From assembly GCA_944358875.1 (NCBI GenBank), contig CALVRZ010000014.1, positions 1-38,895 on the forward strand: 38,895 bases of DNA, read 5' to 3'. A model generated the notes under the pieces. That model did not search any database. It saw nothing but the letters and a program-made list of their open reading frames with translations, and was not told where the DNA came from. Below, piece after piece: positions 996 through 20,419 of this stretch; positions within the stretch are counted from its first letter, which is position 1, and each line of letters starts with the position of its first letter. The translations under genes were made by a program, and so were the position numbers. Source of the stretch: an uncultured Bacilli bacterium (GTDB lineage: Bacteria; Bacillota_I; Bacilli_A; RF39; UBA660).

Positions 996-1023
996 TAATT
1001 ATTATTTTAGGAAAATGGATTTA

Positions 1024-1052: not shown

Positions 1053-1065
1053 CTAATATGATATT

Positions 1066-3195
1066 CTATTTTTTTATTTCAACAACTTCATAAGCTTCGA
1101 TGACATCTTGTTCTTTAATATCATTAAAGTTTTCAACGGTTATACCACATTCTAGTCCTTGCTTTACTTCTTTGACTTGGTCTTTTTCACGAGCTAAACT
1201 GTTGATATTGCCATCATATATGACAACATCATCTCTAATAATACGAGCTTTAGCATCACGTCTGATAATACCACTTATGACATATGATCCAGCGATAGTA
1301 CCAACTTTAGAGAATTTAAAGATTTTACGTACTTCGGCTTGACCTAATACTTTTTCTTCGTATTCAGGATCTAGTTTTCCTTTCATAGCGGCTTCCATAT
1401 CTTCTACTACTTTATAGATGATATTATATAACCTAATATCAACATTTTTTTCTTTAGCTAATTCAATTATTTTATTGTTTGGTCTGATATTAAAACCAAT
1501 GATAATGGCATTAGAAGCTGAAGCTAGAACGATATCACCTTCAGAAATGGCTCCTATTCCACTTCGGATGATATTGACTTTAACGCCTTCTACATTTATT
1601 TTTAGTAATGAGTTTTTAACAGCTTCTTCGCTTCCTTTGACGTCAGCTTTTAAGATGATATTGATTTCTTTAGTACCACTGGAAATACGATTAAAGAGTT
1701 CATCTAAACTTACAGCAGTCTGTGGATGATTGTTTTTCTCTTTTTCGATATTGGCTCTTTCGTTAGCGATACTATGAGCTTTTTTCTCGTTTTCGAAAAC
1801 CATGAATTTATCGCCTGCTGATGGACTAGCACTTAATCCTGTTATTGATACTGGAGTGGCAGGTCCAGCTTCAACAAGATTTTCACCTTTATCATTTTTT
1901 AGAGTTCTTACTTTGCCATAGGCAGTTCCAGCGACGATGGCATCTCCTAAACGAAGAGTTCCATTTTGAATTAAGAGGGTTGCAATGACACCTTCTTGTT
2001 TATCTAGTTTTGATTCTAATACTGTACCACTAGCATAACGATTAGGATTGGCTTTTAATTCTTCTAATTCACTGATTAGTAAAATTCTTTCTAATAAATC
2101 ATCTAGTCCCATGCCCGTTTTGGCAGAAATATTTACAAACATGGTATCGCCACCCCATACTTCTGGAGTTAGACCATAAGCAGCCATTTCGTTTAATACT
2201 TTTTCGGGGTTGGCGTCTGGTTTATCCATTTTATTTACTGCGACGATGATAGGAACACCAGCCGCTTTGGCATGATCGATAGCCTCTTTGGTTTGAGGCA
2301 TGACACCATCATCAGCAGCCACAATAATGATAACAATATCGGTAATACTAGCACCACGAGCACGCATTTCAGTGAATGCAGCATGGCCAGGAGTATCGAT
2401 AAATGTTAATTTGCGACCATTGTGATTAATTTGGTAGGCTCCAATAGCTTGAGTTATGCCACCGGCTTCACCTTCGGCAACATTTGTTTTTCTGATCGTG
2501 TCTAAAAGAGTCGTTTTACCATGATCAACATGCCCCATAATGGTTATAACAGGAGCTCTTGGTACTAAATCTTCAGGACGATCATTCATTTCTAATTCTT
2601 CAAAATTGACTTCACTTCTGGTTTCTTCTTTTTTTAATTCTTTCTTATACTCAGAAGCGATAAGGGAAGCTGTATCAAAATCTAGTGATGTGTTTAAATT
2701 AGTCATCATGCCTAAACCCATTAGTTTTTTAATAATTTCAACAGCATTTATTTTTAGGACTTGTGCAAGTTCTGAGACGGTCATGTTTTCTTTATAGAGA
2801 ACAATACTATCATCATCTTGAACGGCATTTGATTGTAATTTTTCTTTGTTTTTATACATATTTTTACGTTTTGATTTGAAATCTTCATTGTTTGTTTTAG
2901 GAGAATTAGATTTGTGCTTTTTCTTGGTATTTACGGGTGTGACTTCTTCTAGTTCTTCTTCATAGCTATCTGTGATATCATCTTCACTTTGAGGCATTTC
3001 TTCGTCGTCTTCATCAATATTGTCTAGATTATCCTCACTGGTTAGATTAGCTATTTCATTATCTAACATGATAATAGCATCATCATCTAACATGGTATTT
3101 TCATCTTCGATAGCTATGTTTAATTTTTGACATAATTTGGTTATTTCTTCAATTGGTTTATTAACATCATTAGCATATTCTAATACACTCATCAT
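1066..3195 (-). CDS. infB: Translation initiation factor IF-2
   Basis: IF-2 is the GTPase that brings initiator tRNA to the 30S subunit and drives subunit joining. The protein has an IF2_N-like helical segment at about 1-50, an acidic then lysine-rich linker, a second IF2_N at about 135-185, and the G domain with G1 GHVDHGKT near residue 221, DTPGH and NKMD, followed by the usual C-terminal domains. About 709 residues is normal for a Gram-positive IF-2. The reading frame opens upstream at GTG 3204, but that codon lies inside the AGGAGG site (3209-3204), so ATG 3195 (8-base spacing) or ATG 3192 is the likely start. It is the last gene of the operon, 19 bases after rnpM. Confidence 0.97.
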
Positions 3196-3214
3196 ATTAA
3201 CCACCTCCTAGGTT

Positions 3215-3478
3215 TTATTTATTTTCGATAATTTCTTTCAACTCCTCATATATGGTGTTATCGATTGGTGTTTCTAAATGCTTTTCTAAGACTTTGGTTT
3301 TAATGGCCTTGGCTAAGACATCTAAATCTTTTTTGATGTAGGCACCACGACCATTGCTTTTGCCTGTTAAATCGACAAAAACTTGATTATCATTATTTTT
3401 GACAATGCGAATTAGTTCTTGTTTGGGATATTTTTCCCTAGTAACAACACAAGTGCGCATTGGTACTTTTCTATTCAT
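3215..3478 (-). CDS. rnpM: RNase P modulator RnpM (YlxR, DUF448)
   Basis: This 87-residue protein has the YlxR signature: PMRTCVVTREKYPKQELIR at the N-terminus and GRGAY in the middle. YlxR/RnpM of Bacillus subtilis binds RNase P RNA and modulates its activity. Its start overlaps the end of nusA by 8 bases (ATGAATAG), so the two are probably translationally coupled. In most Bacillota a L7Ae-like gene (ylxQ) lies between ylxR and infB; it is absent here. Confidence 0.93.
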   Translation of the reverse strand: MNRKVPMRTCVVTREKYPKQELIRIVKNNDNQVFVDLTGKSNGRGAYIKKDLDVLAKAIKTKVLEKHLETPIDNTIYEELKEIIENK

Positions 3479-4541
3479 CTTGACCTTCTTCTTGAAGACT
3501 TACGTCTTTACTATTTTTTACTTCTATCTTATAGTGTGTTAGTTTAGAAGCTAAACGAACATTTTGTCCTTTCTTACCAATAGCTAGTGATAAGTTATCA
3601 TCATCGGCGACGGCAAGTGCTTCTTTTTTCTTTTCATCAGTAATGAAAACACGAACATTTTTGGCTGGTGATAAAGCGTTTTGGATAAATTTAACAGGAT
3701 CTTTATCATATAAAACGACATCAATTTTTTCACCATTTATTTGGCTTAAAACGCGACCAATACGTGATCCTTTTTCACCGATGATGGCACCGACTGGTTC
3801 AACATTGTCATAATCAGTATATACAGCGATTTTACTACGACTACCAGCATCTCTAGCAACAGAATATAACATAACGGTTCCGTCGCTTAGTTCAGGGATT
3901 TCTAATTCTAATAATCTTTTTAAGAAACCATAGTGTTTTCTAGATAGGAGAATAAAGACTCCTTTGTTGTTGATATCTAATTTAGATACGTAGACTTTGA
4001 CGGATGAACCCATTTCTAGCTTTTCACCCGGAATGATTTCACTTTTAGGTAATAAGCCATGAGCTCGTCCTAAGTTAACATAATAATTTTTTGTATCTTC
4101 ACGTTCTAATATACCAACTAGTAATTCGTCTTGTTTATCTTTGAATTCTTCTGATACAGCAGTTTTTTCAGCTTCTTTGACTCTTTGAACGACAACTTGT
4201 TTAGCAGTACCGGCAGCGACACGACCGAAATCGGTTAATGGTTCTTCTTTTTCAATGGTCTCTCCTAGTTCAATTTCGGGAACGATTTTTTTAGCATCTT
4301 CGATAGATATTTCGGTAACATCATTATTTACTTCTTCAACAACGTTTTTAAATGAATATAATTTGATATCACCAGTATCAGGATTAACCGTACAACGAGC
4401 ATTAGGATTACCTGTTTTTTTCTTGAATGCTGCCATCATGGCTTGTTCCATTGTTTCCACAACAAAATTTTGGTCTAAGCCTTTTTCTTGACATATGGCA
4501 TGTAGTGCTGTCATAAATTCTTTAGCTTGTTTTTTATCCAT
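3471..4541 (-). CDS. nusA: Transcription termination/antitermination factor NusA
   Basis: NusA binds RNA polymerase and nascent RNA and controls pausing, termination and antitermination. The 356 residues fit the short Gram-positive form: an N-terminal polymerase-binding domain (about 1-125), an S1 domain (about 135-200) and two KH domains with GxxG loops GEKGSRIG and GKKGQNVR. There is no acidic-repeat C-terminus as in E. coli. The ATG overlaps the rimP stop (TAATG) with GAGG just upstream. The leader hairpin before rimP could make this operon subject to NusA autoregulation. Confidence 0.97.
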   Translation of the reverse strand: MDKKQAKEFMTALHAICQEKGLDQNFVVETMEQAMMAAFKKKTGNPNARCTVNPDTGDIKLYSFKNVVEEVNNDVTEISIEDAKKIVPEIELGETIEKEEPLTDFGRVAAGTAKQVVVQRVKEAEKTAVSEEFKDKQDELLVGILEREDTKNYYVNLGRAHGLLPKSEIIPGEKLEMGSSVKVYVSKLDINNKGVFILLSRKHYGFLKRLLELEIPELSDGTVMLYSVARDAGSRSKIAVYTDYDNVEPVGAIIGEKGSRIGRVLSQINGEKIDVVLYDKDPVKFIQNALSPAKNVRVFITDEKKKEALAVADDDNLSLAIGKKGQNVRLASKLTHYKIEVKNSKDVSLQEEGQDE

Positions 4542-4798
4542 TATTGATTACCTCTTTCTTTTGACATTACTTCTAGAATGTAACTATCTTCGAATATGTC
4601 TTCATTTTTATCTAGAATAGGATTAATTACATTAGTTACTTCGACACAGGTGTCTAAGTCAACTGGTTCATCACGATCAATAGTGATACGTAGATAATTA
4701 TTACTTCCTTCTTTAACATATTCAATACTGTCGATAATTACGCCTAAGTTAGTAACTTCTTCTTCGACTAATTTTTTTACTTGTTCTTCAATATTCAT
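4541..4798 (-). CDS. rimP: Ribosome maturation factor RimP, N-terminal domain only
   Basis: RimP assists 30S subunit maturation. Residues 1-80 match the RimP N-terminal domain, with the typical LRITIDRDEPVDLDTCVEV and YILEV stretches. The reading frame stops at SKERGNQ, exactly where the conserved SPGLDRPL motif and the C-terminal SH3-like domain should begin, so this is 85 residues against about 150 for the family. The stop overlaps the nusA ATG, so the short form looks fixed and not a random break. The frame is open upstream to 4855, but GGAGG at the right distance selects ATG 4798, and the upstream part overlaps the leader hairpin. Confidence 0.85.
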   Translation of the reverse strand: MNIEEQVKKLVEEEVTNLGVIIDSIEYVKEGSNNYLRITIDRDEPVDLDTCVEVTNVINPILDKNEDIFEDSYILEVMSKERGNQ

Positions 4799-4815
4799 AA
4801 TACCTCCATTTAATC

Positions 4816-4848
4816 TAATAATAAAGAGTGGATTTTTAAGCCACTCTT
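4816..4848 (-). promoter_or_regulatory. Leader hairpin with weak U-tract before rimP (candidate NusA-dependent attenuator)
   Basis: A perfect 8-bp stem (AAGAGTGG / CCACTCTT, 9-base loop) is followed by an interrupted U tract (TATTATTA) before the rimP start. In B. subtilis the nusA operon leader carries a NusA-dependent terminator that gives autoregulation. This hairpin has the expected place and the weak U tract, but its activity is inferred. Confidence 0.65.
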
Positions 4849-4864
4849 CTGTCAAGATAACTAT

Positions 4865-4894
4865 AGTATATCACATTTTTAAAGAAATGTACAA
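4865..4894 (-). promoter_or_regulatory. Promoter of the rimP operon
   Basis: Extended -10 TGaTATACT (4873-4865) with a poor -35 (TTGTAC, 4894-4889) at an 18-base spacing. Transcription would start shortly before the leader hairpin. Confidence 0.6.
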
Positions 4895-4989
4895 CTTTTT
4901 TATGGTAATTATGTATTTTAGGACGATTAGTTTTAAAAAATGATAATTTATTTTTAGAAATTTAAGACTAACTATTTAGAAAATTCTGA

Positions 4990-5511
4990 CTATATGTTTT
5001 TGTTAAAGGTTAAAATTAGATCATGATCTTCTTCAATTTTTAACATATGGTATTTGATACCAACTTGATCGAACATGGCTTTAGAGGCTTTAACGCCATC
5101 AGTATCAGCATATTTATCACATAAATAAATTACTTCTTTGATTCCTGATTGGATTATTAGCTTGGCACATTCATTGCAAGGAAATAAATCAACATATATT
5201 TTGGCATTTTCTAATTCTTTGCGACTACCACGATAATTTAAAATAGCATTCATTTCACCATGGCATACATAAAGATATTTGGTTTGAAGTGGGTCGCCTT
5301 CTCTATCCCATGGGAAGTTATCATCTTCGATGCCATTGGGTGTTCCATTATAGCCGATGGATAAGATACGATTATCAGAACCGACGATACAGGCTCCGAC
5401 TTGAGTGTTGGGGTCTTTACTGCGCATAGCTGCTAGTTTGGCAATCCCCATGAAGAATTCGTCCCAACTGATATTATTAGAACGTTGTTTTTGTAGTTTT
5501 TGATCAAACAT
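4990..5511 (-). CDS. comEB: dCMP deaminase family protein (ComEB-like)
   Basis: The enzyme deaminates dCMP to dUMP, feeding thymidylate synthesis. The 173 residues hold the zinc site of the cytidine-deaminase fold: H-x-E in CHGEMNAI (His84, Glu86) and PCNEC (Cys112, Cys115). The length and the NGTPNG and DPNTQVGACIV stretches fit the ComEB/dCMP deaminase group and not tRNA adenosine deaminase. The ATG at 5511 has AGGAG upstream. It lies 11 bases after the small gene at 5523-5783 and is probably co-transcribed with it. I see no convincing terminator after it. Confidence 0.9.
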   Translation of the reverse strand: MFDQKLQKQRSNNISWDEFFMGIAKLAAMRSKDPNTQVGACIVGSDNRILSIGYNGTPNGIEDDNFPWDREGDPLQTKYLYVCHGEMNAILNYRGSRKELENAKIYVDLFPCNECAKLIIQSGIKEVIYLCDKYADTDGVKASKAMFDQVGIKYHMLKIEEDHDLILTFNKNI

Positions 5512-5522
5512 ATTTTCACTCC

Positions 5523-5783
5523 TTATTTGTGGGTTTCATTATAATAGTGCATTTCTTGTAATTTAGTGATAATAGCTTCTAGTTCTTCATCATCCGTGAT
5601 ATTTTCATCAATTATTTCTTCTAAATACATTAATAATTCACTTATATTATGGCAAGCGTAGAAATTTATTTGATATTTTGCTAATGTTTCTACTTCTTCT
5701 TTACTTAATAAAATACCATGGCCATTATCGACGGATAAATAACTATTAGGATTTATTTGTTTTAATAAATTATTGATGTCCAT
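5523..5783 (-). CDS. Small conserved-looking protein of unknown function
   Basis: This 86-residue acidic protein has a good ribosome binding site (AGGTGGT) and its own likely promoter, and it sits 11 bases before the dCMP deaminase. The N-terminal half looks beta-rich (YLSVDNGHGILLSKEEV), and the C-terminal half is a helix with many Glu and Leu. I recognise no domain. The operon position suggests only a loose link to nucleotide metabolism. Confidence 0.75.
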   Translation of the reverse strand: MDINNLLKQINPNSYLSVDNGHGILLSKEEVETLAKYQINFYACHNISELLMYLEEIIDENITDDEELEAIITKLQEMHYYNETHK

Positions 5784-5799
5784 ATTACCACCTAGTACT

Positions 5800-5808
5800 A
5801 TTGTATCA
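5800..5808 (-). promoter_or_regulatory. Likely extended -10 of the 86-aa gene / dCMP deaminase operon
   Basis: TGaTACAAT on the minus strand, 17 bases before the start codon and just after the terminator of the CotD-like gene. The -35 box is weak. Confidence 0.4.
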
Positions 5809-5827
5809 TAATTTGTTTAATTTTAAG

Positions 5828-5857
5828 AAAAAAACTACTAACTTTTTTGGTTAGTAG
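5828..5857 (-). terminator. Intrinsic terminator of the CotD-like gene
   Basis: Stem CTACTAAC / GTTAGTAG with a 7-base loop, followed on the minus strand by seven T. Confidence 0.9.
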
Positions 5858-5883
5858 CTTATTAGTTATTTAATATTTGTTTA

Positions 5884-6213
5884 CTATCTAAATTGACAGC
5901 AAGATCCACATTGTTGATTAGTCACAACATTTTCTTCACTACAAGTATATCTTGGTTGATAGGTGTGACGATAAATGTGATTGTTGATTATTCTTGTATT
6001 GATTGGACATACATGTGGCACTTCATGAATGATATTACGATATACACATCTTTCACGAGCTGGTTCAACAACTGGGCATGATGACATCGTAGCTGCCCCT
6101 TCGTAACCTCCCATTTGACTATTCATATTAGTATTGACATTTTGATTAGTGATGTTGATATCAATATCATTGTCATAAGGCATTTCTTGTCTGAAATCAT
6201 CGTTATATAACAT
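5884..6213 (-). CDS. CotD-like spore coat protein
   Basis: The 109-residue protein starts with an Asn/Asp-rich polar segment and continues with a Cys/His-rich core containing CPVVEPARERC, HEVPHVCPINTRIINNH, IYRHTYQPRYTC and a CGSCC end. This is the pattern I associate with the CotD family of spore coat proteins in Bacilli and Erysipelotrichia. If right, the organism makes spores or descends from spore formers. No signal peptide or membrane segment is present. The gene stands alone between two terminator or hairpin structures, and a possible SigK-like promoter lies upstream. The family call is moderate because coat proteins are low-complexity. Confidence 0.65.
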   Translation of the reverse strand: MLYNDDFRQEMPYDNDIDINITNQNVNTNMNSQMGGYEGAATMSSCPVVEPARERCVYRNIIHEVPHVCPINTRIINNHIYRHTYQPRYTCSEENVVTNQQCGSCCQFR

Positions 6214-6224
6214 AATGCTTTCCT

Positions 6225-6264
6225 CCTATCTACATTATATTATGTTATTTTTGCGTAGATAGGT
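6225..6264 (-). promoter_or_regulatory. Inverted repeat overlapping the CotD-like RBS, with embedded promoter
   Basis: A perfect 9-bp inverted repeat, CCTATCTAC (6263-6255) and GTAGATAGG (6233-6225), flanks a 21-base loop; its downstream arm runs into the AGGAGG site of the CotD-like gene. The loop holds CATAATATA (6244-6236), which fits the sporulation sigma -10 pattern CATAnnnTA, with AC at 6264-6263 about 17-18 bases upstream. It also contains TATAAT. Transcripts read through from ffh would fold the RBS into the stem; transcripts from the local promoter would not. Confidence 0.5.
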
Positions 6265-6281
6265 AATACAAATGTCTAGTT

Positions 6282-7589
6282 TTAAAAAGGAAGTTTAAAA
6301 TTATTGTTACTCATCATTTTCATCATTTTTTTCATTTCTTCAAATTGCTTTAATAATTGGTTTACTTCCGTGACAGTAGTTCCTGAACCTTTAGCTATTC
6401 GTTCTTTACGAGATGCTTTTAAGATACTTGGGTCTTTTCTTTCTTCGGGTGTCATCGATAAGATGATAGCTTCGATGTGACTCATTCTCTTAGGATCAAT
6501 ATTAACATTGTTAAGGCCCATCTTTTTGGCACCTGGTAACATTTTGAGGATGTTTTCTAAGGGACCTAGTTTTTTGATTTGATTTAATTGGGTTAAGAAA
6601 TCTTCTAAATCAAATTTACCTTTAGCCATTTTTTTAGCGGCTTGCATAGCTTCTTTTTCATCTATTTCGCTTTCGACTTTTTCAACTAAGCTTAGGATAT
6701 CACCCATACCTAAGATACGGGAAGCCATACGATCAGGATGAAATTCTACTAGTCCATCTAGTTTTTCACTAATACCAATAAATTTGATAGGAATATTGGT
6801 AAGATGTCTTACGGATAGTGCTACACCACCTCTGGTGTCACCATCTAATTTGGTTAGGATAACTCCTGTTAGAGGTAAGGCATCGTTAAAGCCTGTGATA
6901 ACGTTAATGGCATCTTGTCCCATCATGGCATCGATGACAAGTAATACTTCATGAGGATGTGATATTTCCACGATATTCTTTAATTCATCCATTAGGGTTT
7001 CATCGATATGAAGACGACCAGCGGTATCGATTAGGATATAATCGTAATTATTTTCTTTGGCATGGTTTAGAGCGTTAGTAACGATTTGGGTAGGATCAAT
7101 CTTTCCTTCACTATATACTTCGATACCTAATTCTTTACCGATTTGAATTAATTGATCGATGGCTGCAGGCCTGTAAATATCACACGCTACTAAAAGAGGT
7201 TTTTTCTTGTGTTTTTTTCTTAAATGATTAGCTAGTTTTCCAATTGTTGTTGTTTTACCTGAACCTTGAAGACCTACAAGCATGGTAATTGTAGGATTTT
7301 TATCGATTGTTAAAGGAGCACTTTCGCCTCCTAGTAATTCGGTTAATTCATCTTTAACGATTTTAACGAAGGCTTCACCAGGAGATAAGCTTTTGTTGAC
7401 TTCTTCACCTAGAGCTTTTTCTTTAACAGTATTGGTAAACTCTTTAACAACTTTATAGTTAACATCAGCTTCTAGTAAAGATAATCTTATTTCACGCATC
7501 ATATCAGAAATATTTTCTTCGGTTATTTTACCATAGCCTTTGATTTTATGCATAACATTTTGTAATCTATCACTTAAATTTTCGAACAT
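6282..7589 (-). CDS. ffh: Signal recognition particle protein Ffh (SRP54)
   Basis: Ffh binds signal sequences of nascent proteins and SRP RNA and docks with FtsY at the membrane. The 435 residues show the N domain (1-90), the G domain with G1 GLQGSGKTT near 106, DTAGR and TKLDGD, and a C-terminal M domain whose end is rich in Met and Lys (EMKKMMKMMS). The M domain is a little short. The ATG has AGGTGAT upstream. The HTH gene ylxM, often just upstream of ffh, is absent here, and a tRNA-Gly follows divergently. Confidence 0.97.
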   Translation of the reverse strand: MFENLSDRLQNVMHKIKGYGKITEENISDMMREIRLSLLEADVNYKVVKEFTNTVKEKALGEEVNKSLSPGEAFVKIVKDELTELLGGESAPLTIDKNPTITMLVGLQGSGKTTTIGKLANHLRKKHKKKPLLVACDIYRPAAIDQLIQIGKELGIEVYSEGKIDPTQIVTNALNHAKENNYDYILIDTAGRLHIDETLMDELKNIVEISHPHEVLLVIDAMMGQDAINVITGFNDALPLTGVILTKLDGDTRGGVALSVRHLTNIPIKFIGISEKLDGLVEFHPDRMASRILGMGDILSLVEKVESEIDEKEAMQAAKKMAKGKFDLEDFLTQLNQIKKLGPLENILKMLPGAKKMGLNNVNIDPKRMSHIEAIILSMTPEERKDPSILKASRKERIAKGSGTTVTEVNQLLKQFEEMKKMMKMMSNNNFKLPF

Positions 7590-7607
7590 TTTTCATCACC
7601 TGTTTCA

Positions 7608-7613
7608 ATTATA
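7608..7613 (-). promoter_or_regulatory. Likely -10 box of ffh
   Basis: TATAAT on the minus strand, 18 bases before the ffh start codon. The upstream region is A-rich with no clear -35. Confidence 0.4.
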
Positions 7614-7646
7614 CACTATTTTTTTAACTTTTTTTATAAAAAATGG

Positions 7647-7675
7647 TTGATTTTTAAATCTTTTTTCTATATAAT
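7647..7675 (+). promoter_or_regulatory. Promoter of tRNA-Gly
   Basis: TTGATT and TATAAT separated by 17 bases, ending 14 bases before the mature tRNA. Confidence 0.8.
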
Positions 7676-7689
7676 GGTATATGTGTGAT

Positions 7690-7764
7690 GCAGATGTGGT
7701 TCAATGGTTAGAATACGGCCTTGCCAAGGCTGTGATGCGGGTTCGATTCCCGTCATTTGCTCCA
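7690..7764 (+). tRNA. tRNA-Gly (GCC)
   Basis: Complete cloverleaf: acceptor GCAGATG pairs with CATTTGC, the anticodon stem is CGGCC/GGCTG, the loop TTGCCAA has anticodon GCC, the T loop is TTCGATT, and CCA is encoded. It begins the accessory stretch to the right; I found no second copy of its 3' end that would mark an integrated element. Confidence 0.97.
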
Positions 7765-7803
7765 TGAAAAGATCTGCTCGAGCTTTCGAGCATTATGATA
7801 AAT

Positions 7804-7834
7804 ATCAAATTCAGAAATGGATTTGATTTTTTTT
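7804..7834 (+). terminator. Intrinsic terminator after tRNA-Gly
   Basis: Stem ATCAAAT / ATTTGAT followed by eight T. A second, GC-richer hairpin (TGCTCGA-gctt-TCGAGCA, 7775-7792) lies between the tRNA and this terminator and may help 3' processing. Confidence 0.8.
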
Positions 7835-7960
7835 GTTTAAGAAAGTTAGTGTGATTTTTTAAGTGGTAAATGTTATTAAGAAAGAAATTAAAATTGATAA
7901 TACTTAAAAAAGAAATTAGAGTTTATTTGTAGTTTTTGTAATACTACTCCTACTTTTATA

Positions 7961-8158
7961 ATGGTAGTATTAAAACTATTGAGTATACATATTTTAATGT
8001 ATGTTGAGCCACATAGAGTTATCATTAAAAGTATTATTTTTTTAGTATTTAATTGTGATCCTTATATTTATGAAAAAAACTTGAGTAAATGTATTCCTTT
8101 AAATAAATTTGAAGATTATTTAAAAAATCTTAATAAAGAAAGAAAGAAAATTGCTTAA
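7961..8158 (+). other. Doubtful 65-codon ORF, possibly a gene fragment
   Basis: The open frame encodes 65 residues with a hydrophobic stretch (VIIKSIIFLVF) and a basic end. It has no clear ribosome binding site and matches nothing I know. An inverted repeat AATACTAC / GTAGTATT spans its start region. It may be the 3' end of a decayed gene; the flanks (7835-7960 and 8159-8220) show only AT-rich sequence. Confidence 0.2.
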
Positions 8159-8319
8159 ATAATTTTGCTTTTTCTAATAAAAAGTGTTAAAATAGTAAGC
8201 TAATAAACATTGATTATTAGTTAATTTTAAGGATGATAACCTGAAAAAAATATATTGTTCATGGCTATGTGTGCTTTGAATACGAGCCTTAAGCGAAGCG
8301 GAAAGGAATGGAACTTAAT

Positions 8320-9522
8320 ATGATAGAAACAAAGGAAAAATATGATTTCAAAAATTTAATAAAGCAAATAGAAGACTACATAAGAAAAACCGAACTTAAC
8401 CAAAATGATATGAAACAAATAAATAGAATACTATTTAAATTAAGAAATATAGATGCAATAACAAGCTCTATTGATGAAGATTTATATTCTGTTTTAATTG
8501 AAAATAATTATAATGACTTGAAAATTTATTGCAACTATTTTGTTTCAGGACAACATAACCATATATCTAATATGCAAACAACAACAAATAATATAATAAG
8601 CGATATTATTAGATATGTTGACTTTAATTTATTATTAGGAAATAAATCTGAAATAAAAAATAATATTAGAAATTATAAATACGAGATTACAAGACAAAAT
8701 CATCTTATTGAAACTGAAGTATCAGAATTTATGAAAATAGTACAAGAAAAAAAGAAAAATTTAGAAGAAGAAGATTCAAATTTAAATTCGTTATTTAGCA
8801 CTTTTAATAATAAATTAGAAGAACTAGAAAAAAAACATACTTCCTTAACAAATGACTTTGGAACATTATTAACACAAAGTAATGATAAAATAGACATGTT
8901 AATAAATGACGAAAAATTAAAGCTAGATGAGAATTATACTAAAGAATCAAATGATTATAAAAATAAATTTGATGAATTATCAAAAGAATATCAAGAAAAA
9001 TTTAACAATTTATACGTTGAAATAACTAAGAAAGATAATCAGATTTCAAAATTATTAGATATTGTAGGAGAAAAGGCAAGAGTTGGTGAATATAAAAGAA
9101 ATGCTGATATAGCAAGAAAAGAAAGAATTGTTTGGCAAATTATTACAATAGCATTATTCATATCAGCTTTTGCTTTGATGCTTTATGTTACTATGTGTTC
9201 TGATTATGACAAATTTACAATATTAAAATATGTAGTTAGTGCTATTTTAATGGGTGCTGCAACTTACACTGGCAAACAAGCATCTAATTTAAGAAAAGAT
9301 GAGGTCTATTATAGAAAACAAGAACTAGAATTGTCTTCTATTGATGTTTATCTAGAAAACATGCAACCAGAAAGTAAAGAAGAAATAAAGAAAGAATTAT
9401 CTTCTAAATTATTTGGCCAAGCTCAAAACACTTACACTAATAAATATGAAGAAAAGAAAGGATTTTCTGTAGAAGACATTTTTAAAATAATTGATTTAAA
9501 AAATCAAAGTCGAATGAAGTGA
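8320..9522 (+). CDS. Coiled-coil protein with two membrane segments
   Basis: About 400 residues: a helical N-terminal part, a long coiled coil (roughly 140-250, full of Lys/Glu/Leu/Asn), two hydrophobic segments (about 271-291 and 299-316), then a cytoplasmic tail ending in ELSSIDVYLENM and KLFGQ. I recall the same order (coiled coil, two membrane helices, a tail with an ELxxxDxY-like segment and a final FG) in membrane proteins of bacterial defence neighbourhoods, but cannot name the family. The first ATG (8308) abuts the AAAGGA site, so ATG 8320 is more likely. A GC-richer structured leader precedes it. It stands alone. Confidence 0.7.
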   Translation: MIETKEKYDFKNLIKQIEDYIRKTELNQNDMKQINRILFKLRNIDAITSSIDEDLYSVLIENNYNDLKIYCNYFVSGQHNHISNMQTTTNNIISDIIRYVDFNLLLGNKSEIKNNIRNYKYEITRQNHLIETEVSEFMKIVQEKKKNLEEEDSNLNSLFSTFNNKLEELEKKHTSLTNDFGTLLTQSNDKIDMLINDEKLKLDENYTKESNDYKNKFDELSKEYQEKFNNLYVEITKKDNQISKLLDIVGEKARVGEYKRNADIARKERIVWQIITIALFISAFALMLYVTMCSDYDKFTILKYVVSAILMGAATYTGKQASNLRKDEVYYRKQELELSSIDVYLENMQPESKEEIKKELSSKLFGQAQNTYTNKYEEKKGFSVEDIFKIIDLKNQSRMK

Positions 9523-9595
9523 GTCCATCTAGATCCTTGAATTTTTATTATGTAATTATAATGTTTATTCAAATAAAGTTTGTCTTTATTTGTTA

Positions 9596-9757
9596 TCAAT
9601 TAATATTAATCCTGTATAGAACATCTTCTACATATTCAACAATATTAGAATCAGGTTCTCTCATATCTGGGCATAAATGATTATATAATTCATAATTATA
9701 TTGAAACCATAAGAAAACACCTCTTTTTTGGAAGTGTTTTGTATCGCAACCCTTAAA
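9596..9757 (-). pseudogene. Short remnant of an unknown gene
   Basis: A 53-codon open stretch on the minus strand reads like real protein (KRGVFLWFQYNYELYNHL and PDSNIVEYVEDVLYRI) but has no start codon or ribosome binding site and is closed upstream by TAA. It is probably the 3' end of a lost gene. The rest of 9523-9920 is AT-rich with no other feature seen. Confidence 0.4.
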
Positions 9758-9920
9758 TTAGTTTTTTTCTATTGTCTCTCTATGTAGTGCATTCATTATG
9801 TATATGATTTTTTTTATTTAATGCCATTAAATTAGGAATTATAAAAATAAATGTTTAATATTTTTAAGAAACTTACTTAAAATAATAGGAAAATTTAGTA
9901 TAATATTATTGGTGATGAAA

Positions 9921-11414
9921 ATGATTATATACGATAAAATAGCAGATATTGAAATACAAATGGATAATGCTTTAGACAAAGGAAATAGTCAAATAATTAA
10001 TAATTTAATAAATGATTTACTTCTATTAGAAAAAAATGAAACTGACAAGAAGGCTCTATTCAAAATATATTATAACCTAGGAACAGCATATTCTGACTTA
10101 ATATTTATAAATGATAATAGTTTTATTGAAAATGAAGAATGTGTTAGAAAAAGTATTTTGTATTATAGAAAAGGTGAGTTTCTAATAGAAGAAAACTTTT
10201 TATCAGTAAATGATGGTATAATTCAATTGTTAACTAATTTAGGGAATACATATAGTCGCATGAATAGATTTACTGAAGCAATAGAGGTTTTTAAAAAAGC
10301 ACTTGTATTTGCACCTAATTTTAGTATGGCTAATGGAAATTTAGGGGAATGTTTATTAAGATACTCCTTGTATATATATAATCAATATAAATCATATTTA
10401 TTTCAGCAAGAAAGTCTAAAGTATTTGAAAAAGGCATTAGATTATCCTCAATATATAGATAGTGACTTTGCAAAAGAAGATTTTATGAATGCATATTATT
10501 CATTGAAAGAACATTATGAAAAATTTGAATTAAATTTTCCAAAAATTAAAACTACTAAATATAAAACAATAAAGGAAGCAAACTATAGAAAATGGTCTGC
10601 AGATAATAAACTTTTCTTAAATGAACTAAATGATATTGATAATTCTTTTTTAGCAAAAGAAGATTCTTTACACATTTTATTAATAATTGAAAATATAGAT
10701 AGTGGTTTAAATTCTAAATTTCATAGTTTTTTTAACGAATTAAAACAAGATTATATTTCCAATAGATATTTTCTATATGAAGTATGTCAAGAATGCACAA
10801 AACATCATTTTTCAGATAATTTTTCTGGAATTTTAGAAACTTTTGATGATTCAATCTATACTTTAAATACTACAAAATTGAAAAGTATCTTTAAAAACAT
10901 TTATTCTCTCTTCGATAAAATAGCTTTTTTTATTAACGAATATTTTAATCTTAACATTCCTTATAAAGCTGTCTCGTTCAAATCAATTTGGGAAAATAAA
11001 AATAGTGAAAATACTTTGTTTGATATTATAAAACATAATAATTCTTTATATTCACTTTATTGGATTTACATAGACTTGTTTAGTAACTTTGAATTATCTA
11101 CTGATCCAAAAATTGATAAAATAAATAAAATAAGAAATAATATTGAGCATAGAAACTTTAAAATAGTTGATGTTAGCTATGATATGGATATCTTAACCGA
11201 AAACAAAGATGATTCCTTTGAATTCAAAATTTCTTACTCAGAATTAAAAAAAGTAACATTTTACCTATTTAAAATCTTAAGAACTGCTATGATAAATTTA
11301 GTATATGCAGTTATGATTGAGGAAAAGAAAAAAATAAATATTAATGATGCTTATATACCATCAATTCAATTACCACAAAAAGACAAAAGAGATAATATAA
11401 TTATTTTTAATTAA
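9921..11414 (+). CDS. TPR protein with C-terminal HEPN domain (LA2681-like)
   Basis: The N-terminal part has tetratricopeptide-like helices, clearest at about 100-145 (LLTNLGNTYSRMNRFTEAIE), and the C-terminal part (about 310-470) looks like the LA2681-type HEPN domain: KIAFFINEYFNL, SFKSIWEN and the motif RNNIEH (Arg405, His410), which fits the RX4-6H active site of HEPN ribonucleases. HEPN proteins are RNA-cleaving effectors in toxin-antitoxin, abortive-infection and CRISPR systems. No antitoxin-like gene is adjacent, so the TPR part may sense or restrain the domain. TTG and GTG codons lie upstream in frame, but GGTGAT places the start at ATG 9921, the same arrangement as in ffh. Confidence 0.75.
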   Translation: MIIYDKIADIEIQMDNALDKGNSQIINNLINDLLLLEKNETDKKALFKIYYNLGTAYSDLIFINDNSFIENEECVRKSILYYRKGEFLIEENFLSVNDGIIQLLTNLGNTYSRMNRFTEAIEVFKKALVFAPNFSMANGNLGECLLRYSLYIYNQYKSYLFQQESLKYLKKALDYPQYIDSDFAKEDFMNAYYSLKEHYEKFELNFPKIKTTKYKTIKEANYRKWSADNKLFLNELNDIDNSFLAKEDSLHILLIIENIDSGLNSKFHSFFNELKQDYISNRYFLYEVCQECTKHHFSDNFSGILETFDDSIYTLNTTKLKSIFKNIYSLFDKIAFFINEYFNLNIPYKAVSFKSIWENKNSENTLFDIIKHNNSLYSLYWIYIDLFSNFELSTDPKIDKINKIRNNIEHRNFKIVDVSYDMDILTENKDDSFEFKISYSELKKVTFYLFKILRTAMINLVYAVMIEEKKKININDAYIPSIQLPQKDKRDNIIIFN

Positions 11415-11449
11415 TAAAAAGCTTAATTTTAAAATCACCATATTCTTTA

Positions 11450-12364
11450 TTCGTTTAAAGATTAAACAATTAAATAAGAATATATTGGTGCAAATAATGT
11501 AACTACCATTAGTAATATTTTTAAAATTACAATATTCATTGTAAAAGATACTAATAACATTAAAATATATCCAGTTTTTCTCCCTAGTCCTATGAATTTT
11601 TATGTATAACCAATGTATTATTTTCTATTTTATATTTTTTATCAAATCACCTTTTCTAGTATTATACAATACATCAAAAAATACAAAAGGTAACTATATA
11701 GCAAAAATAAAGATTATTAAAGTTATTTTATTAATATTAATTAAATAAGCCTATAGCACCTATTATTAAATGAATGATCATAGTGATAATATAAACTGGG
11801 CATTTCCCATATATATAATTTGTTATACAACATTATAGAAAATATTAAACATATTGAAAACCTGTAGTTAAAACACCTAAATTAAATGATGTTTTAAATG
11901 TAACTATAGTTATAATAATCATTAAAGTACTAATAGAACTTTCTATAATACCATATGCTATGCCTTATAAATTATATTTTTTCTTGTTATTATTTTGAAT
12001 GTCAGTTTTAATAGATAAGGTTATAATTATTTGAATAACAGAAAGGATAAAAATATATATTGCAATTTTAGTGAAGGAACATAACTATATTAAAACCCTA
12101 AAATAATGAGAGAAATGATGTTTACAATTTTCATAATATCTTTTTAACATACATGTATTTTTTTCTATTATCATTATTTGTTATATATATGAATTCATGT
12201 GCACGCCAATACAATATTTCTAAAAAGGTATATATTATTGCAATTAAAATATAATTAGAAACAATTTTATCTGATAATAAAACTATGGATAAAATTCTTG
12301 TTACAATTCCTAATGACATTATATGTTTACTTTTGTTTGAAAATTGTTTAATTATTCTTCCCAT
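11450..12364 (-). pseudogene. Decayed multi-pass membrane protein, probably an MFS-type transporter
   Basis: A 77-codon fragment (12131-12364) reads as membrane helices with a polar loop (NNDNRKKYMYVKKIL). Read across frames the next 650 bases keep giving hydrophobic segments (IINIISxIILGF-like, GIIESSISTLMIIITIV, NLGVLTT, LLVSFTMNIVILKILLMVV) broken by stops and frameshifts. Helices joined by short basic loops suggest a major-facilitator transporter that has lost its N-terminal half. The 11415-12130 stretch therefore holds no intact gene, only this remnant. The decay is plain to see; the product name is inference. Confidence 0.6.
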
Positions 12365-12519
12365 AGTTTAATAGATATGGGGTGATTAATTGATGTTAAG
12401 TTAAAAAAATCCATAATACTTTGATATTCACTTTTTAATTCTTGAATCAAATCATCAATGTAATTAACATCCTTATCGTTATATTCAATATTAAAATTAG
12501 CAAAACTTATCTTTTGCAT
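12352..12519 (-). CDS. 55-residue protein, perhaps the truncated N-terminus of a larger one
   Basis: A 55-codon frame starts at ATG 12519 with an excellent AGGAG site and ends at 12352, overlapping the start of the decayed transporter ORF. The sequence (MQKISFANFNIEYNDKD, YIDDLIQELKSEYQSIMDFF, ISIKLWEE) resembles the N-terminus of larger clostridial proteins of unknown or peptidase-like type as I remember them, so this is probably a truncated gene that keeps its translation signals. It faces the AraC gene divergently. A real small protein cannot be excluded. Confidence 0.5.
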   Translation of the reverse strand: MQKISFANFNIEYNDKDVNYIDDLIQELKSEYQSIMDFFNLTSINHPISIKLWEE

Positions 12520-12601
12520 TATATCAACTCCTATTAATATTTTAACATATAAATTACGATTTAGATTAAATTTATGATAAAATAGTATATAGGTGATTAC
12601 T

Positions 12602-13396
12602 TTGAATATTTATAGAAGTTTAAATGAAATAACTAAATATATTGATAATAATTTAGATGATAATATTGATTATAATGTATTAGCTAAATTTTTAGGAGTT
12701 AATGTTTATACGATGCAAAGGTTATTTACGATGATCGCGGGCATTTCTTTAGCGGAATATATTAGAAAAAGAAGATTATCTAATGCTGGTTTTGATTTAT
12801 ATGAAGGAAAGTTTAAAATAATTGATATTGCATTTAAATATCAATATGATAATGCTACATCTTTTTCAAGAGCTTTTGAAAAATTTCATGGTATTAAACC
12901 TAGTCTTGTTAATAAAGAATCTAAACTTAAGGTGTTTCCTAGAATAGTTTTTAATGAAGATATTAATGTAGTTACAGAACTTAATTATGAGATAATAACA
13001 TTGGATGAAATGGATTTATATGGTATCAGTATTATGACTAATAATGATAAAATTAGCGAGGATGCTCCTAGATTTTTTAAAGATGTGCAAAATAAATATA
13101 AAGATAAATATGGTCAAATTAAATATGGAATGGTTACTTATGATATAGAAAGAGATGAATGTCAAAAATATTATTGTCTATATGATAAAGAAATTAATGA
13201 ATTTGAACATATAGTGATACCTAAGAGTAAATGGTTAAGATTTAGGATTAATTCACAAGATGCTTCAGATATTCAAGAAATATCTCACAAGTTTTACCAA
13301 GATTTTTTACCATCAGTTAAATATAATTTAAAAGAATTACCAGAGCTTGAATACTACCATGATGGTATAACTGATTTTTTAGTAGCTATTTATTAA
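12602..13396 (+). CDS. AraC-family regulator with GyrI-like effector domain
   Basis: The N-terminal 100 residues form two helix-turn-helix motifs of the AraC/XylS type (YNVLAKFLGVNVYTMQRLF and the IIDIAFKYQYDNATSFSRAF signature with F-x-x-F-H-G-I-K-P). The C-terminal 150 residues look like a GyrI/SOUL-type ligand-binding domain ending in ELEYY and FLVAIY. Such fusions often control drug-efflux genes, and a decayed transporter lies divergently next to it, perhaps its former target. The frame opens at GTG 12593 inside AGGTGAT, so TTG 12602 is the likelier start. A clear terminator follows. Confidence 0.9.
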   Translation: MNIYRSLNEITKYIDNNLDDNIDYNVLAKFLGVNVYTMQRLFTMIAGISLAEYIRKRRLSNAGFDLYEGKFKIIDIAFKYQYDNATSFSRAFEKFHGIKPSLVNKESKLKVFPRIVFNEDINVVTELNYEIITLDEMDLYGISIMTNNDKISEDAPRFFKDVQNKYKDKYGQIKYGMVTYDIERDECQKYYCLYDKEINEFEHIVIPKSKWLRFRINSQDASDIQEISHKFYQDFLPSVKYNLKELPELEYYHDGITDFLVAIY

Positions 13397-13471: not shown

Positions 13472-15334
13472 ATGGGGTTAACGTCAGAAATATATTTAAC
13501 TAAAAAAAATGTTAGTAAAGATGAATGGTTAGAATTAATTAAAACAATATCTAATTATAATGGTTTTTTAAGAGGATGGAAGATAATTATTACAAATGAT
13601 AAAAATCAAATAAGCTATTTTGTTGAAACGAGATGTAGTTTACCTGCAACAATTAATAATTTGAATTCTTTTTTGTTGAGAAATGCAAAAACTGTTAAGG
13701 TACCAAAGGAAGATTATACTTTCTTTTCTTTACCAAAAATTGGTAGTAATATTATCGATATAATAAATAATTGTGAAATTAAGAACAAAGGGATGCTTGA
13801 GTATTTAGAAATTAGTTTCTTAAAATTATCAGAAGATAAGATTCTGTCTAAAATTAATTATTACTTAAATAAGAATAGGTGTATTAAAAAGTATAAAGTT
13901 ATATATGCGATTGCTACAAATATTTTGGCAGTAGATTTTGATGGTAATAAAAGATATTTTTATAAGAGTCCCCCTAAGTATTTAGATATAAATAAAGTGT
14001 TACATTTATTAACTACAGATTATAATAATGCGTTATTAGAAATTGATACTTTTCCCTATTTGAATGGTAATTTTTATTTAAATCAGAATAGCTTTAGTTT
14101 TGATAAACACTCTATTATCATAGGTTCTTCGGGATGTGGCAAGTCTAAGTTTTTGAGTTTATTAATTAATAATATTAATAAAAATAATCGTCTTAAACAA
14201 AAATATAAGATTGTCGTTATTGATCCACATGCAGCATTAGAAGATGATATTGGGGGGATGGGAAAAGTAATTGACTTTAAAAATAGTTTAGATAGTATTG
14301 ATTTATTTATTAATAATAGTGATGATATTGTGGCTTCGACAGAATTATTATTAGATTTATTTAAATCTTTAATTGCTGATCAATATAATTCTAAATTAGA
14401 AAGAGTTTTAAGGCATTCAATCCATTTATTATTAATTAATCAAACGTTTAATTTTAGGAATTTACGAAAAATTATTTTAGATTTGGAATATCGTAATAAT
14501 TTGATTAAAAAATTTAAGTATGATTTACCAGTGAGTGTTATTGATTTCTTTTTATCAGATTTTAATGATTTAAAGACAAAAGCTTATGGGGAGGCTATTA
14601 GTCCTATTATTAGTTTTATTGATGAGATGGAAATGATACCAGTATTTAATTTGGAACAAAATTATGATAATTTAAAGAAGACGATTCATGACAATTTTCT
14701 TACCCTATTCTCTCTTGATCGAACGAAGCTTGGCGATAAGGTAACTAAAACGATTGCTGGTTTAATAATGGGACAGTTATTAACATTAGTACAAAGGCGA
14801 GAGATCGATGAACATATTATTTTTATTATCGATGAAGTTTCAGTGGTGGAAAATCAATTACTATCTAGATATTTATCAGAAGCAAGAAAATATAATTTAT
14901 CCCTAATACTGGTGGGACAATATTTTAATCAAATATCTGATAAGTTAAAAAGTTCAATATTTGCTAATGTTGTTAATTACTTTATATTTAGAGTTTCTAA
15001 ATTGGATGCTACGACACTTGTCGATAATTTTAACATGAAAATACCTTTAGATGATTCTAAGGAAAGAAAAATTAGTTTAATGACGGAACTTAATAATCGG
15101 GAATGTATTGTAAGAATTGATACGAATGGGGTGTTACTTCCAGCGTTTAAGGCTAGAACACTAGATTATACAAGTATACCTAGAATAAAGAGCAACGAGG
15201 AAAAGGTAAATGCAAATAAGTTGGATAAGCCAAGGACTTTGAAAAATGATTTTAAGCTAGATAGTAATGTAAACTTAAAGGATATATTAATATCTAACTC
15301 GACTAATAAGAAAGGTGTGGGAAATAATGGATGA
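13472..15334 (+). CDS. HerA/VirB4-like ATPase (FtsK-HerA superfamily)
   Basis: 620 residues with Walker A GSSGCGKS (218-225), a strand ending in VVIDPHAAL after it, Walker B IIFIIDEVS (449-457) and a following RxxxxNLSLILVGQ sensor-like segment. The order fits the HerA/VirB4 group of hexameric DNA-pumping ATPases. The N-terminal 200 residues resemble none of the domains I know; a low-complexity basic tail follows the ATPase. HerA ATPases usually act with a nuclease encoded next door (NurA, Sir2, DUF4297). Here the partner, overlapping by 8 bases (ATGGATGA), is a cysteine-rich protein instead. No relaxase or secretion genes are nearby, so a conjugative role is unlikely. Confidence 0.85.
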   Translation: MGLTSEIYLTKKNVSKDEWLELIKTISNYNGFLRGWKIIITNDKNQISYFVETRCSLPATINNLNSFLLRNAKTVKVPKEDYTFFSLPKIGSNIIDIINNCEIKNKGMLEYLEISFLKLSEDKILSKINYYLNKNRCIKKYKVIYAIATNILAVDFDGNKRYFYKSPPKYLDINKVLHLLTTDYNNALLEIDTFPYLNGNFYLNQNSFSFDKHSIIIGSSGCGKSKFLSLLINNINKNNRLKQKYKIVVIDPHAALEDDIGGMGKVIDFKNSLDSIDLFINNSDDIVASTELLLDLFKSLIADQYNSKLERVLRHSIHLLLINQTFNFRNLRKIILDLEYRNNLIKKFKYDLPVSVIDFFLSDFNDLKTKAYGEAISPIISFIDEMEMIPVFNLEQNYDNLKKTIHDNFLTLFSLDRTKLGDKVTKTIAGLIMGQLLTLVQRREIDEHIIFIIDEVSVVENQLLSRYLSEARKYNLSLILVGQYFNQISDKLKSSIFANVVNYFIFRVSKLDATTLVDNFNMKIPLDDSKERKISLMTELNNRECIVRIDTNGVLLPAFKARTLDYTSIPRIKSNEEKVNANKLDKPRTLKNDFKLDSNVNLKDILISNSTNKKGVGNNG

Positions 15335-16025
15335 TACTAAAGCACTTGATATGGTTAATAAAATTTTTAGAAATGTTTTTGATACTGATAATCATTATTC
15401 GTTAGATGAATTATTAGAAAAATTTGCTTTTGATGTTAAATTACCAAAACAAGTAAATGACTCTATTACTAATGAGATTACTTGGGCTGATGCGATTAAC
15501 AGTGGAAGATTTATTACAAATAAGAATATGGAAAAAAGAGATGAAACACAAGGATGGATGCTTCCTAAGAAAGAAATAAATAATTTACAAGAACTTATTG
15601 ATATATGGAAGACGATTAATTTAACGACAACTGAGAGAGTTTATGATTCTATTAATGTAATAAAAAGTGATACTATTTATCGGTGTGAAAATGTTTATCG
15701 TAGTACAGATTGTAGTGATTCAAAAAATATGATATTTTGTGATTCTTGTGGTGACAGTGAATTTCTTCTTGCTTCACAGAGATCTAGTGTTTGTAATTTT
15801 TGTATAAGAACTGATGACTCTACTAATTGTAGTAATAGTTATAATGTTATTTGTTCAAATAAAATTAGTAATTCATTGTTTATTCAAGATTGTTTTGATT
15901 TATATGAGTGTATGTTTTGTTCCCATATTGCTTCAAAAAGATTTTGTATTGCTAATATGCAGTTTGATGAAGATGAATATTATGAAATTAAAAAAGCCAT
16001 TGTGAGATGGATTTTAAGCTCTTGA
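15327..16025 (+). CDS. Cysteine-rich repeat protein paired with the HerA-like ATPase
   Basis: About 232 residues. The first 110 are acidic and helical. From about residue 115 the protein carries roughly twelve Cys in short repeats of the type S-x-x-C-x-N/S (RCENVYRSTDCSDSKN, FCDSCGDSEFL, CNFCIR, NCSNSYNVICSN, DCFDLYECMFCSH), ending in KRFCIANMQFDEDEYYEIKK. The regular Ser/Asn/Cys spacing suggests a small beta-helix or stacked metal-binding loops. The end recalls the YCIxNKQYxKEEY segment of Cys-rich proteins from candidate-phylum bacteria, from memory only. AGGTG before ATG 15327 and the overlap with the ATPase stop indicate coupled translation, so the two probably work together. Function unknown. 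Confidence 0.75.
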   Translation: MDDTKALDMVNKIFRNVFDTDNHYSLDELLEKFAFDVKLPKQVNDSITNEITWADAINSGRFITNKNMEKRDETQGWMLPKKEINNLQELIDIWKTINLTTTERVYDSINVIKSDTIYRCENVYRSTDCSDSKNMIFCDSCGDSEFLLASQRSSVCNFCIRTDDSTNCSNSYNVICSNKISNSLFIQDCFDLYECMFCSHIASKRFCIANMQFDEDEYYEIKKAIVRWILSS

Positions 16026-18556: not shown

Positions 18557-18879
18557 ATGCGTAAAACTTATACTAATTGCTCTGTTGAATATATAGCATC
18601 GATTATTGGTAGTAAATGGAAGATTATTATATTAAGAGATTTACTTACTGGGACGAAAAGATATAATGAATTAACGAGATCAGTCGTAGGAATTGCGGCT
18701 AAAGTTCTTACAGAAAATTTACGGGACTTAGAAAGAGATGGTATTGTTAAAAGAAAGGTATATCCAGTTGTACCCCCTAAAGGGAATATTCTCTTACTGA
18801 TAAGGGATTAGAACTTAAAGATGTTCTTGAATGTATGAGATTGGTTGGTGAAAAATATAAGGAGGATAATAATGAGTAA
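18557..18879 (+). pseudogene. HxlR-family regulator, frameshifted
   Basis: The winged-helix start is typical (CSVEYIASIIGSKWKIIILRDLL, RYNELTRSVVGIAAKVLTENLRDLERDGIVKR). At VVPPK the frame shifts after AAAGGG (about 18778) and ends early at 18811. Reading on in the -1 frame restores the family's end: EYSLTDKGLELKDVLECM then GEKYKEDNNE, stopping at 18879. One base is missing compared with the expected PPKVEYSLT. The DNA-binding part is intact. HxlR proteins often sense redox or electrophile stress. AGGAG precedes ATG 18557. The end overlaps the macrodomain start by 8 bases. Confidence 0.85.
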
Positions 18880-19610
18880 GAATGAATTGGTTGATAAATT
18901 ATTAGACTATTTTGTTAATGAAAATAAACGATTTTTAGAATATGAAAGACCTAATAATTATAATGAAAAGAGAATTTTTTTAAGAGGTATTATTAATATG
19001 CGACTCCCCTATCCTTTGGATGGAGAAATACTTGAAATGGAAGATAATTTATTGCAATTAGAATTAAAAGATAAATTAATTACCGATGTTAATGATATTC
19101 CTTTAACCGATGATAAGATTGGTTTATGGCGTGGTGATATTACGACACTTAGAATTGGGGCAATTGTAAATGCTGGTAATGAAAAACTACTTGGATGTTT
19201 TATTCCTAATCATTCTTGCATTGATAATGCTATTCATACTTATGATGGAATAAGATTACGCCTTACTTGTAATGAAATAATGAAAGGTAGAGATGAAGAA
19301 ACGGGAAAAGCAAAAATTACGGATGCTTTTAATCTTCCTAGTGATTATGTTATTCATACAGTAGGACCAATTGTATACCAAAAAGTTACGGATAAGGAAA
19401 GAAAGGAATTAGAAAATTGTTATATTTCATGTTTAGATCTAGCTAAAGAAAATAATATTAGGACAATTGCTTTTCCTTCAATATCAACCAGGGTATTTCA
19501 CTTTCCAAAGGATGAAGCAAGCGAGATTGCGGTAAGAACAGTAAGAAATTATTTTTAATGTCTTTACAGAGGAGGATATGGATTATTATGAAAGATTATT
19601 CAAAGATTAA
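18872..19610 (+). pseudogene. Zinc-containing macrodomain (protein-ADP-ribose hydrolase), 3' end damaged
   Basis: The start at ATG 18872 follows AGGAGG. The protein shows the macrodomain core (LWRGDITTLRIGAIVNAGNE), the zinc-binding pattern of this subclass (GCFIPNHSCIDNAIH with a further Cys), DAFNLPSDYVIHTVGP and AFPSIST. This family removes ADP-ribose from proteins and is typically encoded with a sirtuin. The frame ends at 19558 after VRNYF; in another frame the expected end continues (NVFTEEDMDYYERLFKD to 19610), so about ten residues and the frame were lost by a small deletion. Most of the catalytic core remains, so activity is possible but uncertain. Confidence 0.85.
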
Positions 19611-20419
19611 AAAACTTCTCGATGAAAGTGATGCAATTATTATTGGTGCAGGAGCCGGTCTTTCAACAGCAGCAGGAATTAACTTTGGGGAAGATGAATT
19701 TAAAGAAAAATTTCCCGAGTTAGTAGATAAATATGGAATGAAAGATATGTATACATCGTCTTTTTATCATTTTGATTCAGAAGAAGAAAGATGGAGTTAT
19801 TGGGCTAAACATATTGATTATTTATATAATGTTGAGGCTAAAGATCTGTATTTAAATTTATTTGAATTAGTTAAGAATAAGAATTATTTTGTTATTACAA
19901 CCAATGTCGATAGACAATTTTTAAAGGCTGGTTTTGCAAAAAGAAAAAGTCTTTGAAGTCCATGGTTCACTTGCTAAAATACAATGTGCTTTGGGATGTC
20001 ACGATAAACTTTGCGATGATTTAGAAATTGTTAGGGAGATGCTTGATAATAATATTGATTGTCATATACCTACTTCACTTGTTCCTATTTGTCCAGTTTG
20101 TAAAGGTAAAATGGAAGTAAATTTAAGAAAAGATGCTTTCTTTGTAGAAGATGATAATTGGCATAACTTAAATGATAATTATGAAAAGTTTATAATAGAA
20201 AATAAAAAGAAGAAATTACTTTTAATTGAGTTAGGTGTGGCTTATAATACCCCTAGTATTATTAGGTTTCCTTTTGAAAAGATGTGTCTTAGATTTAAAG
20301 ATACAACTTTAATACGGGTTAATGATAAATACTTAGATATGGCTTTTGAAATACAAGATAAGGCGATGTTGGTGCATGATGATTGTGGTAGTTTTATTAA
20401 CGGTTTATTAAATAGTTAG
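19588..20419 (+). pseudogene. Sir2-family NAD-dependent protein, frameshifted
   Basis: The N-terminal part has the NAD-binding GAGAGLSTAAGI and TTNVDRQF. At 19940 an extra A in the run GCAAAAAGAAAAAG breaks the frame; the next frame continues with KVFEVHGSLAKIQC, four Cys in zinc-ribbon spacing (CALGCHDKLC, CPVCKGK) and the Sir2 end to 20419. The macrodomain partner points to the SirTM-like protein ADP-ribosyl-transferase group, but here the HG of deacylases is kept where SirTM usually has QG. The lipoate ligase and GcvH-like genes of the known SirTM operon are not in the window. The ATG at 19588 lies within the old macrodomain end. Confidence 0.85.

Follow-up and report, generated by a model that had tools for sequence, protein, structure and literature searches.

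By its sequence, the open reading frame at positions 9921-11414 (+ strand) of the window, that is, the whole analysed stretch of 38,895 nucleotides, belongs to the LA2681-like HEPN family and carries N-terminal TPR repeats. Probably, the protein is a self-contained, horizontally moved LA2681-family HEPN ribonuclease that serves as a one-gene abortive-infection device. The family is widespread, combines a candidate sensor and an effector in a single chain, and can move as one gene. Its simplicity, wide distribution and direct testability in Escherichia coli make it moderately interesting.

The gene occupies a single open frame of 497 amino acids, stop codon included in the coordinates; the frame is also open from position 9909. 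The ATG at 9921 is the likely start, because the sequence GGTGATG lies directly 5' of it at 9911-9917. The TATAAT box further upstream is weak, since promoter-like sites in the region numbered 20 versus a shuffle mean of 21.2. The following features were assigned:

9921-11414, + strand: the whole TPR-HEPN gene (open reading frame, Pfam)
9911-9917, + strand: GGTGATG, as read from the letters the likely ribosome-binding site for the start at 9921
9899-9904, + strand: TATAAT, possible -10 box, with TTAAAA at 9877 (consensus scan, weak)
9921-10532, + strand: predicted nine-helix TPR solenoid, residues 1-204 (Pfam TPR models, AlphaFold2 model)
10575-10706, + strand: conserved connector, residues 219-262, consensus YRxWCLxNxLFLNPLND...D (alignments)
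10716-11321, + strand: HEPN_LA2681 domain, residues 266-467 (PF18733, model, structural matches)
11133-11150, + strand: RNNIEH (R405-N-N-I-E409-H410), predicted RNase active-site motif RX4H (alignment)

The Pfam profile PF18733 (HEPN_LA2681) matched residues 266-467 with an E-value of 2.4e-45 and a score of 154.9 bits, against a cut-off of 27. No NCBIfam model matched the protein, and none of the PADLOC (2023) families did so at E-values up to 10. The RX4H motif occurs once in the whole protein, as RNNIEH at residues 405-410. The motif alone was rejected as evidence for a HEPN domain, since 14% of shuffles of the protein contained RX4H (1422 of 10,000; R[NDH]X3H was present in 265 of 10,000). 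The family assignment rests instead on the profile score, which lies far above its cut-off.

Relatives were found with alignment queries rather than single-protein queries, which retrieved no relatives from the genome and viral collections. The resulting alignment comprised 117 sequences: the window protein, 80 genome loci (the best 80 of 165 with a relative), 24 loci of the viral collection, 11 plasmid loci and one locus of the phage collection. Both R405 and H410 were kept in all 116 sequences reaching the column; the sole aligned sequence lacking the motif comes from a contig that ends before it. Both residues were also present in 85 of 85 representatives, one per 70% identity cluster, and the scans for relatives had been seeded with peptides from outside the motif. 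E409 was kept in 110 of the 116 sequences that reach the column. The residue after the arginine was asparagine in 101 of 116, as with the polar N406 here, and a polar residue after the R of RX4-6H belongs to the description of the HEPN superfamily given in PMC3710099. Other near-invariant residues of the family are Y222, W225, N237, D248, K275, R282, D332, N373, R454 and E468. The preliminary description had proposed a TPR-HEPN protein with a complete RX4H motif and had named HEPN profile similarity and conservation of the Arg and His in homologues as its checks; the PF18733 match, four TPR models (see below) and the alignment bore it out on each point.

The predicted structures are compatible with this assignment. 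The full-length AlphaFold2 model, built with 15 sequences, had a pLDDT of 81.3 and a pTM of 0.85 and showed nine helices within residues 2-201; the model of residues 206-497, built with 78 sequences, reached 89.0 and 0.89, respectively. Searches with the full-length model returned TPR structures only, both in Foldseek and in a second look at the Foldseek hits, where the TPR half gave Z-scores up to 17.9 (2.4 A over 156 residues). For residues 206-497, the HEPN toxin 5yep_B was matched with Z 8.2 (3.6 A over 130 of 133 residues), and 13 of the 17 top rows of the second look, with Z of 7.2-8.2, were proteins of the HEPN superfamily, as judged by title or by the families tabulated in PMC3710099. 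They include HepT of MntA-HepT, other HEPN-MNT toxins, Csm6, and YutE (1ylm) and HI0074 (1jog), both classed as HEPN in that table. Three rhodopsins and an actin-binding domain tied with the HEPN proteins in the same Z range. Foldseek E-values for this half were 0.2 or worse, with no solved HEPN structure below 0.9, and its sequence profile found no solved HEPN structure in the PDB, only a chance match. The fold match is therefore supportive, not decisive, since the Z-scores are low for a helical bundle and rhodopsins tie. The HEPN assignment is carried by the PF18733 profile, and the predicted fold supports it without proving it.

In the N-terminal half, the Pfam models TPR_8, TPR_2, TPR_1 and TPR_17 scored above their cut-offs around residues 102-147 (TPR_8, 33.3 bits versus 25.7). 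This middle TPR is the most conserved, with a mean entropy of 2.06 bits at residues 98-150 versus 2.89 and 2.95 in the flanking helices. N106, N109, R116 and A137 are nearly invariant across phyla; among the 84 representatives with the column, N106 was found in 84, R116 in 82 and A137 in 83. N106 and N109 fall where the TPR consensus itself favours asparagine, so part of their conservation is that of the repeat. The face by which a sensor binds phage proteins should vary, while a face contacting the HEPN domain or a host molecule should not. Conservation of the middle TPR is thus no less compatible with an internal or unvarying contact than with the sensing of diverse phage proteins; direct sensing of fast-changing phage proteins is disfavoured, and restraint or guarding by the TPR half may be rated slightly higher.

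HEPN domains with the RX4-6H motif are metal-independent RNases that need the histidine and, in two cases, the arginine (PMC3710099); both residues were required in the tested members KEN and PrrC (PMC3710099). HEPN RNases work as dimers (PMC11087260, PMC13092281). In the mechanism that we favour, the HEPN domain would pair with a second copy, and R405 and H410 of both chains would form a metal-independent RNase site. The TPR solenoid, joined via the conserved LFLNPLND segment, would keep the pair inactive and would release it upon binding a partner molecule that is newly present or changed when a phage (or plasmid) invades. Once active, the enzyme would cut cellular RNA, and growth would stop. 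We infer dimer formation and RNase activity by analogy with the HEPN superfamily; the TPR restraint, the trigger and the defence role are more tentative proposals. If the family is an abortive-infection device, it would offer a simple model for a repeat domain restraining a HEPN RNase. A guard mechanism is conceivable, though we give it a rather small chance: the middle TPR would contact either the HEPN half or some invariant host molecule, and the RNase would be freed when infection breaks this contact, without any phage protein being bound. The family would then represent a partnerless guard-type HEPN immune receptor of bacteria and archaea.

The preliminary description had stated that the gene stands alone, and the neighbourhoods of its homologues agree. 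The widest neighbour family within four genes spanned 8 of 87 clusters (116 loci), and at the level of protein families no recurrent adjacent antitoxin gene was found in these 87 clusters. With open reading frames called mechanically, 67 of the 105 loci having genes on both sides had no same-strand frame within 50 bp on either side. The E. coli copies, moved as single-gene cargo, have different flanking genes in the four opened records, which represent three kinds of element. All these observations argue against the toxin of a toxin-antitoxin pair, whose antitoxin would be a neighbour such as the open reading frame at 8308-9522 or a small RNA or protein that the annotation lacks. We regard such a pair as unlikely, although partners such as MNT or RnlB accompany many HEPN toxins (PMC3710099), and the upstream gene shares the strand of the homologue in 89 of 109 loci and lies within 50 bp in 26 of 109. 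Also in favour of a pair, an archaeal plasmid of Haloplanus carries the TPR and HEPN parts as two overlapping genes, in line with the 2013 remark "in operon with TPR" (PMC3710099). The candidate at 8308-9522 (+ strand) encodes 404 amino acids with, by eye, an apparent coiled coil and a membrane segment. It ends 399 bp upstream of the TPR-HEPN gene, belongs to no family and, among 59 other genomes of the class, gave one weak match of 20% and no clear relative.

On the other side, 2 kb downstream, a HerA/mad8-like ATPase gene overlaps a gene for a 236-aa protein that had no match in Pfam, NCBIfam or PADLOC. This pair (13472-16025, + strand) was considered as a partner and rejected: a pair of similar size precedes the Cetobacterium homologue, but the two pairs are not homologous.

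The homologues travel on diverse mobile elements. In E. coli, a DNA search found a homologue in 11 of 5426 genomes, a lower bound as divergent copies are missed. There, at least three dissimilar elements carry it as a single gene, namely, a trb-bearing element adjoining yfgI (two of the four opened records), a Rac-like prophage, and an element with a MobQ relaxase adjoining ssrA, where the gene, encoding 579 amino acids, follows the integrase; the R...H pair was in an open frame in all four records. Such one-gene portability implies that sensing, restraint and killing either reside within this protein or rely on something that every host has, and the TPR half is the only candidate for sensing or restraint. 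The record MT836114.1 (positions 1-12877), although deposited as a bacteriophage, rather resembles a mobilisable element: its open reading frames, named by eye, are integrase-like, Xre-like, primase-like and Mob-like, followed by a methyltransferase-like gene and the TPR-HEPN gene.

Judged by annotation, 6 of the 11 opened plasmid loci had defence or toxin-antitoxin genes within 8 kb, each set at one locus: a DNA methyltransferase with a helicase, CBASS with AbiEii, NACHT, MazEF, a GNAT/DUF1778 pair, and CcdAB. The other five had no nameable gene of this kind by annotation within the same distance. For the genome loci, neighbours were sampled around 50 of them and compared with PADLOC models at E-values up to 1e-5. 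Proteins within two genes and 3 kb (110 of 138) matched 494 models, versus 84 for proteins at least 6.5 kb away (110 of 153); these figures give a direction, not a rate, since the models are redundant and the first near protein alone matched 44. The top families near the homologues were type I and type II methyltransferases (4-5 of 110 proteins each) and mad2 (5 of 110), while no PADLOC family was matched by more than 2 of the 110 far proteins. In the window itself the defence surroundings are thin, comprising the unclassified coiled-coil open reading frame upstream and the HerA/mad8-like ATPase downstream.

The same carriers could point to an exclusion system borne by mobile elements, using the same RNase chemistry mainly against competing plasmids or conjugative elements. 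Many copies are indeed found on plasmids or on mobilisable or conjugative elements, not beside host genes. However, prophage-like contigs also carry the gene (24 viral-collection loci), and homologues occur beside restriction-modification and other phage-defence models as well. Genomic setting does not separate exclusion from phage defence, because defence genes ride all these elements; on balance, we consider exclusion as the main function quite unlikely.

A housekeeping or stress RNase, regulating RNA of the cell itself by way of a host protein bound to the TPR and playing no part against mobile elements, would fit the conserved middle TPR (residues 98-150), which suggests a constant binding partner. 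It would also fit the quick tree, a fast version of tree search, in which the sampled Bacillota members form one group and other phyla are mixed; homologues as a whole are spread over many bacterial phyla and archaea. Such a role is improbable, however, given the sporadic occurrence of the gene: it was found in only 1 of 60 genomes of relatives and scored over the cut-off in only 1 of 392 genomes of the phylum, in both cases the window's own. Moreover, its carriers are prophages, integrative elements and plasmids, and the GC content of the gene (0.22) is low compared with 0.34-0.345 for the adjoining ffh, nusA and IF-2 genes. Least probable of all is a decaying or inactive remnant in this genome: the copy is single in a small AT-rich genome, has an end branch of 1.5 changes per site and a best identity of 36%, and departs from near-invariant positions (N115 for G, L253 for P, N281 for A), but its 497-aa frame is open and of family length (median of 519 aa in 108 uncut sequences), and the motif with all other invariant HEPN residues is kept. 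The window gene is an ordinary, rather diverged member of the family.

Upstream, at 6282-7764, ffh adjoins a tRNA-Gly gene. In several relatives only a few kb separate ftsY from ffh, whereas here ftsY is on a different contig; the ffh/tRNA-Gly edge is common to one relative, at a contig end. There is thus a rearrangement at this spot. The tRNA-Gly gene (7690-7764) was rejected as an island insertion site, since no second copy of its 3' end was found in the window.

Several other loci of the window were recorded. Proteins of the UDG superfamily, cadherin-like, HD-domain and radical SAM/SPASM proteins are encoded in one cluster at 20875-25684 (- strand), together with a strong match to PF18723, the 5-hmdU DNA kinase helical domain (E 3e-105); this cluster looks related to modified DNA bases. 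A macrodomain gene (protein-ADP-ribose hydrolase model) is followed by a sirtuin-like gene at 18845-20419 (+ strand), the latter split into two frames near 19950. A PemK/MazF-like toxin domain is encoded at 36211-36975 (+ strand).

A literature search, with subscription papers and supplements outside its scope, found no toxicity, RNase or defence assays of LA2681/PF18733 or TPR-HEPN proteins and no use of TPR-HEPN phrases. LA2681 or PF18733 was named in a single article, in agreement with the preliminary description, which had called such effectors little studied. Two elements of our reading are already known: the LA2681 family with its TPR fusion, reported in 2013, and single-protein HEPN defence, represented by Tha and DS-11. 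Table 1 of Anantharaman et al. (2013; PMC3710099) lists the LA2681-like HEPN domain, PF18733, as "Fused to TPR, and in operon with TPR". The window protein has the same domain, TPR fusion and RX4H motif, and relative to the family as tabulated there it shows no categorical difference, being a diverged member with a best identity of 36%. The HEPN-MNT systems (HepT-MntA; 5yep, 7ae8) are among the best structural matches of its HEPN half, but they need a nucleotidyltransferase antitoxin, and none recurs beside TPR-HEPN genes. The earlier statement that HEPN effectors usually need a partner was overstated, since Tha and DS-11 are both described as single-protein defences (PMC11087260, PMC13092281). 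Tha, a 301-aa prophage defence of Staphylococcus aureus triggered by phage tail proteins (PMC11087260), resembles the window protein in that a single chain bears RX4H in a C-terminal HEPN domain and travels as mobile-element cargo (PMC11087260); the likeness is one of description. As described there, Tha differs in having no recognisable N-terminal domain and in having an inhibitor gene, ith, and the non-specific RNase activity and abortive outcome were shown for Tha itself (PMC11087260). DS-11, whose catalytic residues are needed for defence (PMC13092281), shares the layout of a sensor, putative in the window protein, and a HEPN domain in one chain, but its sensor is a CBS domain that binds an adenine derivative (PMC13092281), not a TPR region.
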